A stretch of DNA of 64,000 nucleotides, taken from positions 434,001 through 498,000 of the forward strand of contig NZ_JAKWJS010000002.1 in the NCBI RefSeq assembly GCF_022761115.1. Reading direction: 5' to 3'. Shown here in pieces: positions 58,861-63,987 of this stretch (positions are counted from its first letter, which is position 1; the number at the start of each line of letters is the position of its first letter). The translations under genes and the position numbers were made by a program. Source of the DNA: Dyella sp. RRB7. GTDB lineage: Bacteria; Pseudomonadota; Gammaproteobacteria; Xanthomonadales; Rhodanobacteraceae. The notes beneath the pieces were generated by a model. That model saw only the letters and a list, made by a program, of their open reading frames with translations, was not told where the DNA came from and searched no databases.

Positions 58861-59358
58861 CTATGGCCGTACGGCAATGACTTCGATCTCCACGCGAAAG
58901 CCGGGGTTGCCCAGCGCGGCCACCTGGAAGGCCGAGCGCGCGGGCAAGTTCGGCTGCTCCTTGGTGCCGAAGAACTGCGTATAGCCGGCCATGAAACCGG
59001 CGAAATCCATATGGCCGCTGTGACTGTCGTCGCCAACCAGGAAGGCTTGCATCTTGACCACATTGCCCATGGTCAAGTGCATGGCCTTGAGTTGCTTGTC
59101 GATGGCGGTGAGCACACCGATGGTTTGAGTCTTGGTGTCGCCATAAGCGGCCATCGAATCCTTGGGCGCCACCGGATCGACGACAGGCGGTACATTGCCG
59201 CTGATATAGATCGTCGACTTGCCGGCGGCCACTTCAACCGCCGCGGAAATGGGAAAGCTGCTCCCGGGAATCGGGTATCGAATCACGTCCTGCGCGGACG
59301 CTGCGCCGTGGATGACGAGCAACCCCAAGGACAGCACGTAGCGGGCAAGATGACGCAT
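58861..59358 (-). CDS. Exported RidA-family protein (imine deaminase type)
   Basis: A 165-residue RidA/YjgF protein with a Sec signal peptide (LGLLVIHGAASAQ, cut near residue 22), which is uncommon for a family that is mostly cytosolic. The active-site Arg141 in LPARSAFQV and the acidic pair in VEIEVIA (Glu157/Glu159) are kept, together with VYISG-like IYISGN. RidA hydrolyses enamines and imines made by amino-acid chemistry. It is the last of four same-strand genes: TonB receptor, flavin oxidase, cytochrome c, RidA; 46 bp separate it from the cytochrome gene. A periplasmic role removing the imine product of the oxidase is inferred. Confidence 0.88.
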   Translation of the reverse strand: MRHLARYVLSLGLLVIHGAASAQDVIRYPIPGSSFPISAAVEVAAGKSTIYISGNVPPVVDPVAPKDSMAAYGDTKTQTIGVLTAIDKQLKAMHLTMGNVVKMQAFLVGDDSHSGHMDFAGFMAGYTQFFGTKEQPNLPARSAFQVAALGNPGFRVEIEVIAVRP

Positions 59359-59404
59359 GGATGGACTCCCCTTTGCTGATGGACATGGCCGTGTCGGTGG
59401 AACT

Positions 59405-59857
59405 TCAGCGATGCAGCGCCGCCACGTCGCTGGCGCTGATGCGATCGCCGTACTGGTTGCCGAAGTGCATGCGGATGTAATTGATCACGTCCGCAATCTG
59501 CGCATCGGTGAGCCTGGCGTCGTCGAGAAACCGGTCTTCGACGACGACGCCTGACGCGAACGCGGGCATGTCACGGCGGCCGTTGAGGATCACCGCGGCC
59601 ATGTACTGCGGTGAGACGAGACGGGGATTGCCGGCAAGCGCCGGGTACGTGCCCGCGCCTTTGGCGCCCCTGGCATCGGGCATGTGGCAGCCCTGGCAGA
59701 TGCTCCGGAATATCGTCTCGCCGGTCGCCGAACCGAGGCTTCCCCCGGGGTGGGCGGCGTTGTCCGACGATTGGGCATGGACCGGCATCGCGCAACACAG
59801 CGAGAGAAAAACGCCATACGGCATCCCTGCGAGCCACCGCGGCCTGTTGATGTTCAT
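59405..59857 (-). CDS. Exported single-haem cytochrome c
   Basis: A 150-residue class I cytochrome c with a signal peptide ending VHAQ, haem-binding CQGCH (Cys54, Cys57, His58) and the sixth ligand probably Met97 in RRDMPAFA. It is a periplasmic electron carrier. Its ATG overlaps the stop codon of the flavin oxidase gene (ATGA), so the two are made together in fixed ratio, which argues that it takes electrons from that enzyme. No oxidase partner gene is adjacent; electrons would flow to the general respiratory chain. Confidence 0.92.
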   Translation of the reverse strand: MNINRPRWLAGMPYGVFLSLCCAMPVHAQSSDNAAHPGGSLGSATGETIFRSICQGCHMPDARGAKGAGTYPALAGNPRLVSPQYMAAVILNGRRDMPAFASGVVVEDRFLDDARLTDAQIADVINYIRMHFGNQYGDRISASDVAALHR

Positions 59858-61461: not shown

Positions 61462-61554
61462 CGAACACTCCGTCGAATATCAAAGCGGGCCGATGCTTCC
61501 GGATGGGCTGTCGCCCCGGCCTACACCGGAACGACAGCCCTCGCCTGCAGTCGA

Positions 61555-63987
61555 TCAGAAGTGGTAAGTCACCCTGCCGTACCAGTAGCGGCCGTTGAAG
61601 CCGAACGGGGACAACGCGGAGTATTGCAGGCCATCCGCACGATCTTCATAGACGTTGTCGAGCGACGCCTTGGTCGGGTACTGGTTGGTGAGATTGTCCA
61701 CGCCCAGGGTGAAGGTCCATGCCTGCAGGTTGTAGCTCGCCGCAAGATCCAGCAGCCAGCGTGCCGAGAAGGTCTGGTCCTCGCTGCCGTCGCTGAGATC
61801 GCCCAGGCGCGTCACCGAGCCGTAGCGCGTCAGGTTGGCGTGCAGGTCGAAGTTCTGGATCAACCAGTCGCCACCGAGCACATATTTCGTGCGCGGCGTG
61901 GCATCGGTAAGCAGGCCCTGGCTGGCGCGGCCGAACGCGGGCGTCGACACGCTGAGAATCGTCGTCTCGTTGTAGTTGCCGCTCAGGCTCAGGTTGAGCT
62001 TGCCAAACTCGTCGAAATCCACCCGATAGTTGGTGATCAGGTCCACGCCGCGGGTGCGCGTGGTGGCGCCATTGACGAAGAACTGCGCGCCGGTGACCTC
62101 ATTGGTGGGCGTGGGCGTAACGGCGATCTGGTCGGAATAGAGGATCTCGTTGCCGATGCGGATCTGGTAAAGGTCCAGCGTTGCGCTAAGGTCGTTCGTC
62201 GGCTGCCATACCGCGCCGAGGCTGTAGTTGGTGGACTTCTCCGGCGTTAATGGCTTGGCGCCCAGCGCGATGGCCGCCGGATTGGAAGTTCGGAACGTGC
62301 CAATCTGGGCCAGCTGCCCGTCCTGGATCAGCGTCACCACCGACTCGTAGTTCTGCTGCGCCAGCGACGGCGCGCGGAAGCCGTTGGACACGGTACCGCG
62401 CAACGCGAAGGTGTCGGTGAACTGATAGCGGGCCGATACCTTGCCCGATGTCGTGGAACCGGCATCGCTGTAGTCCTCGTAACGTGCCGCCACGCCGGTG
62501 GACAGCTTGCTGGTGAGATCGGTCTCCAGATCCACGTAGGCAGCCTCGCTGTGACGGCTGAAGCTGCCCGCCACGCTCGGCGTAAGGCCCGGGTACACCT
62601 GCGAGCCGCCGGCATACGGCGTGGTGGTGCCGGGTATGAGCGTATCGGGATCGAAGAAGTACGAATCCGGATCGCCCGCATCGATCACGTAGGTTTCCTT
62701 GCGGTATTCGCCGCCGAAGGCCACCGTCACCGGGTTGGGCAGGAAACCCCAGCTGTATTCCTTGCTCAAGTCCAGGTTGGCGACGCCTTGCTTGTTGCGG
62801 AACGTGCCTGCATTGAAGTACGTGGGCGAGTAGCCCAGCGTGTAATACTCGTTGACATTGACGCTGTTCTGGATATCGAAGTTGAGGTTGTTCTCGCCGT
62901 AATCGAGCGAGAAATCCCAGTGCCAGCCGCCGTCCGTCTTGCCCCTGACGCCAAGTACGGCGGCGACGTCGTTGCTATGGTTGACGATCTGCGGCAGGAA
63001 GCCGTTGGGATAGATCTCCGGCACGTTGCGGGTGGAATCGAACGGGCGGTAGTAGCCGTTGGAGGTCACATCGCGCTTGCTGCCGTTGATATAGCCATAG
63101 AGTTCAATGCCCGGTGTGAAGTCGTAGCCGAAGTTGAGCAGCACCTGATAGGTCTTGACGGCCGGGTCGCCATAGCGCTCGTAGGGAATGCCGGTTGGAT
63201 TGGGCGCGCCGGCAAGCGTCGTGGATTTATCGGTGTTTTCGGCGCGATTGGTATTCATCGCATCCTGGTAGTTCCACGCTATTCGCGCCCAGCCCGGCGC
63301 GCTCCCTTCCGGCCCGCCCAGCGGAATGCCCATCGACCCCTGCACGCCGTTCTGTGCGCCATCCCCCTTGTCCATGATGCCGCCGTTGGCGGTGATGCTG
63401 TTGCTCCCGGCCGCAGCGCCATGCTTGAGCACGATGTTGATGACGCCGGCGATGGCATCGGAGCCGTATTGCGCGGCGGCACCATCACGCAGGACCTCGA
63501 TGTGGTCGATGGCCGAGATGGGAATCGAGTTGAGATCCACTGGGGCCGAGCCACGCCCCACCGACGAGTTGTAGTTGACCAGGGCGGTGGTGTGGTAGCG
63601 CTTGCCGTCCACCAGCACCAGCACCTGATCGGGCGATAGCCCACGCAGCGTGGCGGGCCTGATCGCGTCGTTGCCGTCGTTGATGGCAGGGCGCGGAAAG
63701 TCGAGCGAGGGAAGCAGCGTGTTGAGTGCACTGGCCAGATCGGTACTGCCGCTTGAAGTGAGATCGGCGGGTGTCAGCACATCGATCGGAGAAAGCGATT
63801 CGGCGGCGGTGCGGTCCGTGGCGCGGGTACCGGTGACGACGACTTGCTGGAGCTGCTTGGCGGTGTTGGGCGTGGATGAGTCGGTGGTGTCATCTGCCCA
63901 GGCGATGGTGGTGGCAAGGGCCAGATTCAGGCCGCACAAAGGCAGCAATGCGACCGCGAGCGGCCGTCGCAAGAGTCGATCTTTCAT
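61555..63987 (-). CDS. TonB-dependent outer-membrane receptor
   Basis: An 810-residue receptor. Signal peptide (to about residue 32), a short TonB box region (QVVVTGTR), a plug domain (about 45-165, with VDGKRYHTTALVNY and SDAIAGVINIVLKHG) and a 22-strand barrel ending in the C-terminal Phe of GRYWYGRVTYHF. It would import a scarce substrate across the outer membrane using TonB energy. GGGGAG precedes the ATG at 63987, only 13 bp from the window end, so its promoter is outside. First gene of the operon with the flavin oxidase, cytochrome c and RidA genes (93 bp to the oxidase). The ligand is unknown but may be the oxidase substrate or its source. Confidence 0.92.
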   Translation of the reverse strand: MKDRLLRRPLAVALLPLCGLNLALATTIAWADDTTDSSTPNTAKQLQQVVVTGTRATDRTAAESLSPIDVLTPADLTSSGSTDLASALNTLLPSLDFPRPAINDGNDAIRPATLRGLSPDQVLVLVDGKRYHTTALVNYNSSVGRGSAPVDLNSIPISAIDHIEVLRDGAAAQYGSDAIAGVINIVLKHGAAAGSNSITANGGIMDKGDGAQNGVQGSMGIPLGGPEGSAPGWARIAWNYQDAMNTNRAENTDKSTTLAGAPNPTGIPYERYGDPAVKTYQVLLNFGYDFTPGIELYGYINGSKRDVTSNGYYRPFDSTRNVPEIYPNGFLPQIVNHSNDVAAVLGVRGKTDGGWHWDFSLDYGENNLNFDIQNSVNVNEYYTLGYSPTYFNAGTFRNKQGVANLDLSKEYSWGFLPNPVTVAFGGEYRKETYVIDAGDPDSYFFDPDTLIPGTTTPYAGGSQVYPGLTPSVAGSFSRHSEAAYVDLETDLTSKLSTGVAARYEDYSDAGSTTSGKVSARYQFTDTFALRGTVSNGFRAPSLAQQNYESVVTLIQDGQLAQIGTFRTSNPAAIALGAKPLTPEKSTNYSLGAVWQPTNDLSATLDLYQIRIGNEILYSDQIAVTPTPTNEVTGAQFFVNGATTRTRGVDLITNYRVDFDEFGKLNLSLSGNYNETTILSVSTPAFGRASQGLLTDATPRTKYVLGGDWLIQNFDLHANLTRYGSVTRLGDLSDGSEDQTFSARWLLDLAASYNLQAWTFTLGVDNLTNQYPTKASLDNVYEDRADGLQYSALSPFGFNGRYWYGRVTYHF

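Follow-up and report, generated by a model that had tools for sequence, protein, structure and literature searches.

The subject of this analysis is a set of four genes in a 64,000-nucleotide stretch of Dyella sp. RRB7 DNA (positions 434001-498000 of its contig; the whole stretch is called the window below): a TonB-dependent receptor, a flavoenzyme of the L-amino acid oxidase (LAAO) type, a cytochrome c and a Rid protein (Table 1). The four open reading frames (ORFs) given in an earlier note on this DNA are intact and all lie on the minus strand. The overlap it reported also holds: the letters ATGA (59854-59857) are common to the LAAO stop and the cytochrome start. The cytochrome stop and the Rid start are 46 bp apart, and 93 bp separate the receptor stop from the LAAO start; the latter gap contains a hairpin that occurs only once in the window. 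A second hairpin possibly serves as a shared terminator for the convergent genes; terminator-like matches on both strands near it (three in the region, against a mean of 4.1 in shuffles) are not above chance. A promoter scan returned no promoter. The convergent gene downstream of the operon (57543-58610) carries the motif HPFQDGNGR, and we take it to encode a Fic-type protein.

Table 1. Genes and hairpins of the locus (window coordinates)
Feature	Position	Strand	Details
TonB-dependent receptor, 810 aa	61555-63987	minus	Pfam Plug 1.1e-20 and barrel 1.9e-40
L-amino acid oxidoreductase of LAAO type (FAD, Tat-exported), 535 aa	59854-61461	minus	Pfam Amino_oxidase 4.7e-54
Exported mono-heme cytochrome c, 150 aa	59405-59857	minus	CQGCH; Pfam Cytochrome_CBB3 1.8e-11
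Exported Rid protein bearing the Rid3 marks, 165 aa	58861-59358	minus	Pfam Ribonuc_L-PSP 3.6e-18
Hairpin between receptor and LAAO	61505-61540		15-nt arms (87% complementarity) and a 6-nt loop; T-run absent
Hairpin beyond the Rid stop, between convergent genes	58791-58832		19-nt arms

Export was called with a motif and hydropathy test, and by this test all four proteins carry export marks, as had been claimed. The same marks recur in the 116 distinct close loci described below: the twin-arginine motif is present in 116/116 LAAOs, and a hydrophobic signal-like N-terminus is seen in 85 of the 86 Rids adjacent to an LAAO and in 114/116 cytochromes. A Rid with a signal peptide, which the earlier note had called unusual, is therefore the usual form here. 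Judged by eye, the Rid N-termini of loci L190, L194, L196 and L198 show a lipobox-like ..GC or ..AC and perhaps belong to lipoproteins; in the separate set of adjacent Rids a pattern search gave 4/86. The host genome (4.08 Mb) contains a TatC match, and the cytochrome c assembly family is matched three times; the window-type LAAO is present as a single copy, and there are three PF01042 places, the window Rid included.

The flavoenzyme, the cytochrome and the Rid protein

The best relative of the flavoenzyme in the PDB is the LAAO of Rhodococcus opacus (2jae, E 3.6e-91, alignment over residues 51-530), and among the best 19 PDB sequences 18 bear the name of an L-amino acid or L-glutamate oxidase and one that of 'Amine oxidase'. 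NicA2 is absent from the best 60 of 104 PDB rows. With LAAOs as the nearest solved relatives, we reject placement in the nicotine oxidoreductase branch, to which the earlier note had likened the electron route. Arg127, which aligns with the carboxylate-binding arginine of R. opacus LAAO, is kept in all 149 aligned LAAO sequences, and so are Lys372 and Trp510; Tyr421 is kept in 146/149 (Phe in the other three). We take the carboxylate-binding residues of the R. opacus enzyme to be those numbered Arg84 and Tyr371. The window enzyme thus combines the full-length similarity and the carboxylate Arg/Tyr pair that characterize R. opacus-type LAAOs. Because Arg127 and Tyr421 are so widely kept, the alignment supports an L-amino-acid-like substrate, as had been argued from Arg127, and it is from sequence that we infer the substrate range. 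An AlphaFold model of the LAAO built from 12 sequences was poor (mean predicted local distance difference test score, pLDDT, of 60), and nothing stated here depends on it.

In the PDB the Rid protein is closest to PSPTO3006 (2.9e-36) and PFL1385 (4.8e-29), both called Rid3 (PMC5619798). In Rid3 an isoleucine replaces Tyr17 of RidA while the arginine and glutamate are retained (PMC4433059), and the window Rid shares these marks (Ile37, Arg141 and Glu159), Arg141 being the imine-deaminase arginine. Among the adjacent Rids the isoleucine is found in 85/86, the arginine in 86/86 and the glutamate in 86/86. In assays with snake LAAO, and likewise with DauA, less imine is trapped when PFL_1385 or PSPTO_3006 is present (PMC5619798). 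Given the Rid3 marks and the deaminase arginine, the suggestion that the Rid acts as an imine hydrolase is likely. That Rid3 genes cluster with FAD amine oxidase genes has been reported already (PMC4433059); the present set differs from that literature in its setting: the available passages of PMC5619798 and PMC4433059 name no pairing with a cytochrome or in the periplasm, and neither 'cytochrome' nor 'periplasm' occurs in the available text of PMC4433059.

The best PDB matches of the cytochrome, though weak, are cytochrome subunits of fructose and alcohol dehydrogenases, followed by cbb3 oxidase subunits; they count in favour of its proposed role as the electron acceptor. This role is likely, and a cytochrome adjoins the LAAO at 116 of 116 loci.

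Conservation of the gene set

All samples were drawn from larger groups. In the sample of the window's bacterial family (197 genomes), LAAO relatives of at least 58% identity are present in 53 genomes (the copy in G122 is a fragment); within the window's genus, 1 of 18 genomes has the gene, namely the window's own. We examined 60 family loci, 56 with 58-85% identity to the window LAAO and four with 33-35%. A cytochrome lies downstream in 56/60 and a Rid in 40/60, and the four distant loci are without cytochrome, Rid and receptor. A contig scan confirmed at least 583 LAAO relatives. Among 80 of these loci the rule used found a cytochrome in 79 (the one missed, L111, was found in the later count of distinct loci), a downstream CxxCH in 80 and a Rid in 56. 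Adjacency was counted with tblastn because antisense ORFs had displaced many cytochrome ORFs in the first neighbourhood clustering. Once duplicates with identical LAAOs were taken out, 137 loci were reduced to 116 distinct close loci (window included): each has a cytochrome with a single CxxCH next to the LAAO, and 86 have an adjacent Rid. The earlier note had named homologues that mostly lack cytochrome c or RidA as evidence against its proposal; most homologues have both.

Counted per family genome, orthologues of LAAO and Rid occur together in 45, LAAO only in 8, Rid only in 3 and neither in 141 (Fisher p 2e-32, which overstates the case because genome relatedness is not corrected for). On this co-occurrence we reject the view of the Rid as a chance neighbour of the LAAO. 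Five genomes without a Rid next to the LAAO carry an unlinked, exported one. LAAO, Rid and receptor are all present in the window's genome and absent from all 17 of the other genomes listed for that genus, and relatives of 84% identity are found in other genera; this patchy distribution suggests joint horizontal gain or repeated loss. Three genomes (G002, G028 and G040; loci L172-L174 and L228-L230) have an exported Rid orthologue and the TonB receptor and no LAAO orthologue. Around their Rids and the five unlinked ones, tblastn with the four window proteins over about 5 kb found the Rid alone. In these three genomes receptor and Rid may serve a different enzyme.

The receptor lies upstream on the same strand in 14/60 family loci and in 8/80 loci from the contig scan; judged by linkage it seems optional. 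Orthologues were counted from 57% identity upwards, a line drawn with the list already in view (below it the matches drop to 53% or less). Some receptors may be missed, because only five candidate places per genome were scored in the family and two in each of 398 phylum genomes. In this way 41/197 family genomes have the receptor, 36 of them together with LAAO and 38 together with Rid, and 17 of the 53 LAAO genomes have no receptor of at least 57%. Five receptor genomes are without LAAO; three of them carry the Rid (G002, G028 and G040), and the other two are G006 and G020. At a stricter line of 73% identity, 16/17 receptor genomes also have LAAO. A comparison of LAAO genomes with the others inside single genera (genomes with a listed genus) points the same way: the receptor is present in 1/1 against 0/17 (g1), 1/1 against 0/14 (g18), 15/16 against 0/2 (g11), 8/15 against 0/1 (g17), 4/4 against 1/2 (g19) and 1/5 against 0/4 (g9). 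No receptor above 49% besides that of the window's own genome was found in the 398 phylum genomes, though 28 others have an LAAO match.

Around the 15 unlinked receptors the other three window proteins were not found within about 4 kb; the recurrent neighbours are, by eye, housekeeping-like genes (aspS-, clpB- and aroE-like). The PDB matches of the receptor are to receptors for siderophores and colicins and mainly cover the plug. Since 36 of the 41 receptor genomes have the LAAO, the receptor may be a real companion of LAAO and Rid at family level, mostly unlinked, and after this recount we dropped the idea of a local add-on. The receptor link of the earlier note has mixed support, from genome co-occurrence (36 LAAO genomes and 5 others, of 197) more than from adjacency. 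At locus L002 (3162-6927, outside the window) a 764-aa receptor-like ORF and ORFs of 228 and 243 aa lie in a row upstream of the receptor; the row presumably resembles an iron-uptake set.

To delimit the group we turn to more distant relatives. An LAAO match (E 1e-20) is present in 29 of the 398 Pseudomonadota genomes, the window's own included; from the 28 others 29 loci were taken and three further LAAO copies left out. Fifteen loci at 52-66% identity have the cytochrome in 15/15 and the Rid in 9/15 (one of them, L191, has KR instead of RR), and two at 40-42% have both. At 36-39% identity, L205-L207 have two CxxCH motifs in one frame, at a distance of 288-291 bp, and then a Rid, possibly a diheme version of the operon. 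L204 and L210-L212 have a Rid and no matching cytochrome downstream, and L208, L209, L213 and L214 match neither (in L209 a CxxCH stands at +1022). The LAAO of L215 is a second copy, and its cytochrome match belongs to the neighbouring copy.

For the tree, 149 sequences were reduced to 72 at 80% identity (quick search, midpoint root, with support from the Shimodaira-Hasegawa-like approximate likelihood ratio test, SH-aLRT, only). A few labels were set by hand: L215 as mono (cytochrome match on the other strand), L204 as none (CxxCH upstream only) and L209 as none; the label 'di' denotes the spacing of two CxxCH in one frame (L205-L207), not a checked protein. The mono-heme rows all fall on one side of a single branch (SH-aLRT 99) and the two-motif rows likewise on one branch (SH-aLRT 100), with a support of only 60 for the group without cytochrome. 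The three cytochrome states require 2 changes, where shuffling gives 13.3 on average (with partly hand-set labels), and Rid presence changes 13 times. What is new in comparative terms is this arrangement: LAAOs linked to a mono-heme cytochrome form one side of a single branch of the tree, and their neighbours have a two-CxxCH cytochrome with Rid, or Rid without cytochrome.

Export marks also shift at this edge. L210 and L212 come from one genus; their Rids have no signal at the N-terminus, and charged residues stand in the signal region of their LAAOs. L211, of the same genus, has signal-like starts on both proteins. The apparent joint signal loss is probably a single event, and it fits a Rid that is needed where the imine forms. 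L210 has, by eye, ABC amino-acid-transporter-like genes upstream of the LAAO, and neither L210 nor L212 has an adjacent cytochrome.

Described systems

The earlier note could not match the set to a described system, but one is on record: the lao-cccA-ridA cluster (GDI2456-GDI2454) of the sugarcane bacterium Gluconacetobacter diazotrophicus PAL5, published in 2016 and described as auxin-making (PMC5053998). It has the same three genes in the same order on a single strand, with a Tat signal on an LAAO of 533 aa (535 aa in the window) for which 34% is given against the R. opacus enzyme (PMC5053998); it differs from the window in that the latter has a TonB receptor upstream. Homology to the window genes was judged from primer peptides. 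The same organisation was noted in Caulobacter and Xanthomonas (PMC5053998). Co-expression of the genes and their part in making indole-3-pyruvate and IAA are reported for that species (PMC5053998). Insertions in lao left tryptophan unused and abolished indole-3-acetic acid (IAA), ccm mutants with 5% IAA are cited, and the authors proposed that cytochrome and RidA assist the LAAO (PMC5053998).

Four of the six G. diazotrophicus primers fit the window proteins (both for lao, one for the cytochrome and one for the Rid). In their printed phase the lao primers read YPSHGYF (codon 404) and QVIHPNY (codon 447), and at these same residue numbers the window enzyme has YPSTDFH and SQIHPQY; the cytochrome primer reads NYVRSH (NYIRMH in the window) and the Rid primer ASTIYL (KSTIYI in the window). 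The matches of the primers ccc_F and rid_R are at chance level, and that of lao_F, its position excepted, is weak (331 of 1000 shuffles reach it). Because the primer peptides and the gene order agree, the LAAO-cytochrome-Rid core is, as far as sequence can tell, an already described kind of cluster. Within the accessible text of the open PubMed Central (PMC) literature the three-gene set is described only in PMC5053998 (cited by PMC10805672), and PMC6981854 names GDI2456 once.

Two further systems resemble parts of the set. NicA2, Pnao and their relatives were reported in 2025 as flavoprotein amine dehydrogenases that use cytochrome c, and many flavin amine oxidases (FAOs) with a Tat signal and an adjacent cytochrome c (CytC) gene are dehydrogenases in vitro (PMC12224317). 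The window set shares both features (by motif test, a Tat motif next to a cytochrome c gene), whereas the published set was seeded from NicA2 and covers other FAO branches, and the window enzyme is closest to LAAOs; the main text of PMC12224317 does not mention RidA, imine or L-amino acid. In Chlamydomonas, LAO1/LAO2 yields indole-3-pyruvate and IAA from tryptophan, and an exported, periplasmic LAAO is likewise combined with a periplasmic RidA (PMC10805672, PMC5053998). Unlike the window set, that system is eukaryotic and described as H2O2-producing, with no cytochrome gene named in the available parts of the two papers (PMC10805672, PMC5053998).

Proposed function and its alternatives

We propose that the set works in the periplasm as an L-amino acid:cytochrome c oxidoreductase, supplied with an imine hydrolase of its own in that compartment, and put the probability of this reading at roughly 0.7. 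The Tat-exported flavoenzyme would bind an L-amino acid through an Arg127/Tyr421 carboxylate clamp, take a hydride from the alpha-carbon and, by the chemistry of its family, release a 2-imino acid. The reduced flavin would then give up its two electrons one at a time to the mono-heme cytochrome c of the overlapping gene, and from there they would enter the respiratory chain; little H2O2 would be expected, given the fixed linkage and the enzymes of Akram 2025 (PMC12224317). In the same compartment the exported Rid would hydrolyse the imine to a 2-oxo acid and ammonium, in line with Rid3 biochemistry, and products such as indole-3-pyruvate would leave the cell or be used. In the window's bacterial family the TonB receptor tends to go with the set, linked or unlinked, and may also work with it.

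Several observations weigh against this proposal. The Rid does not adjoin the LAAO in 30/116 distinct loci and 8/53 LAAO genomes have no Rid orthologue, so the Rid is not essential everywhere; the co-occurrence counts are, moreover, uncorrected for phylogeny. Three clade 1 enzymes react only slowly with their own CytC (Table 3 of PMC12224317), and a search of the open PMC literature found neither kinetic data for the window LAAO branch nor a test of that branch with its own cytochrome. Finally, 149/149 LAAOs have the lysine beside flavin N5. As such a lysine is common to oxidases and dehydrogenases (PMC12224317), it does not decide the acceptor.

It might be argued instead that the LAAO is a true periplasmic oxidase, which uses O2 and releases H2O2 for antimicrobial or signalling purposes while the cytochrome c guards against the peroxide or removes it. 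We consider this unlikely, even though the enzyme nearest to it in the PDB (R. opacus LAAO) bears the name of an oxidase, no aligned LAAO lacks the N5 lysine, and relatives without a matching cytochrome exist (L088-L091 and L204-L214, three of the latter with a two-CxxCH frame instead). The constant presence of the cytochrome beside the LAAO group (116/116) counts against it, as do the overlap of the two genes and the single change on the tree (SH-aLRT 99). Precedent points the same way: many FAOs with Tat signal and CytC are dehydrogenases in vitro (PMC12224317), and the G. diazotrophicus pathway is reported to depend on ccm (PMC5053998).

A different objection concerns the substrate, which could consist mainly of amino-acid-containing compounds too big for porins (peptides, conjugates or metallophores) that are imported by the TonB receptor, rather than of free L-amino acids. 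Free amino acids do not require a TonB receptor, and the receptor adjoins the set in 14/60 family loci and occurs in 36/53 LAAO genomes against 5/144 others (three of these five with Rid). We nevertheless regard such a substrate as quite improbable: the carboxylate Arg and Tyr are kept even where no receptor of at least 57% is found, no such receptor was found outside the family in the 398 phylum genomes save the window's own, and the unlinked receptors sit among unrelated genes. In addition, tryptophan is the substrate by genetics in G. diazotrophicus (PMC5053998).

Extending the oxidoreductase proposal from the window to its relatives, we hold it slightly more probable than its opposite that the group is a further lineage of cytochrome-c-dependent dehydrogenases in the FAO superfamily, belonging to the LAAO branch. 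Those LAAOs that have a cytochrome c of their own would then be L-amino acid:cytochrome c oxidoreductases, with the exported Rid as a third part and the receptor (in the window's family, often unlinked) as a fourth; neighbouring clades would swap the acceptor (mono-heme, two-heme or none), often keep the Rid, and change the compartment of enzyme and Rid together. If true, this would account for the need for cytochrome c maturation in the auxin production of G. diazotrophicus. Window-type LAAO genes are common in Pseudomonadota (at least 583 relatives), plant-associated genera included, and family models name their products amine or L-amino acid oxidases. If these enzymes are respiratory dehydrogenases, then their names, the H2O2 expected from them and the models of bacterial auxin synthesis would change, and the role of Rid outside the cytoplasm would become testable within one operon.

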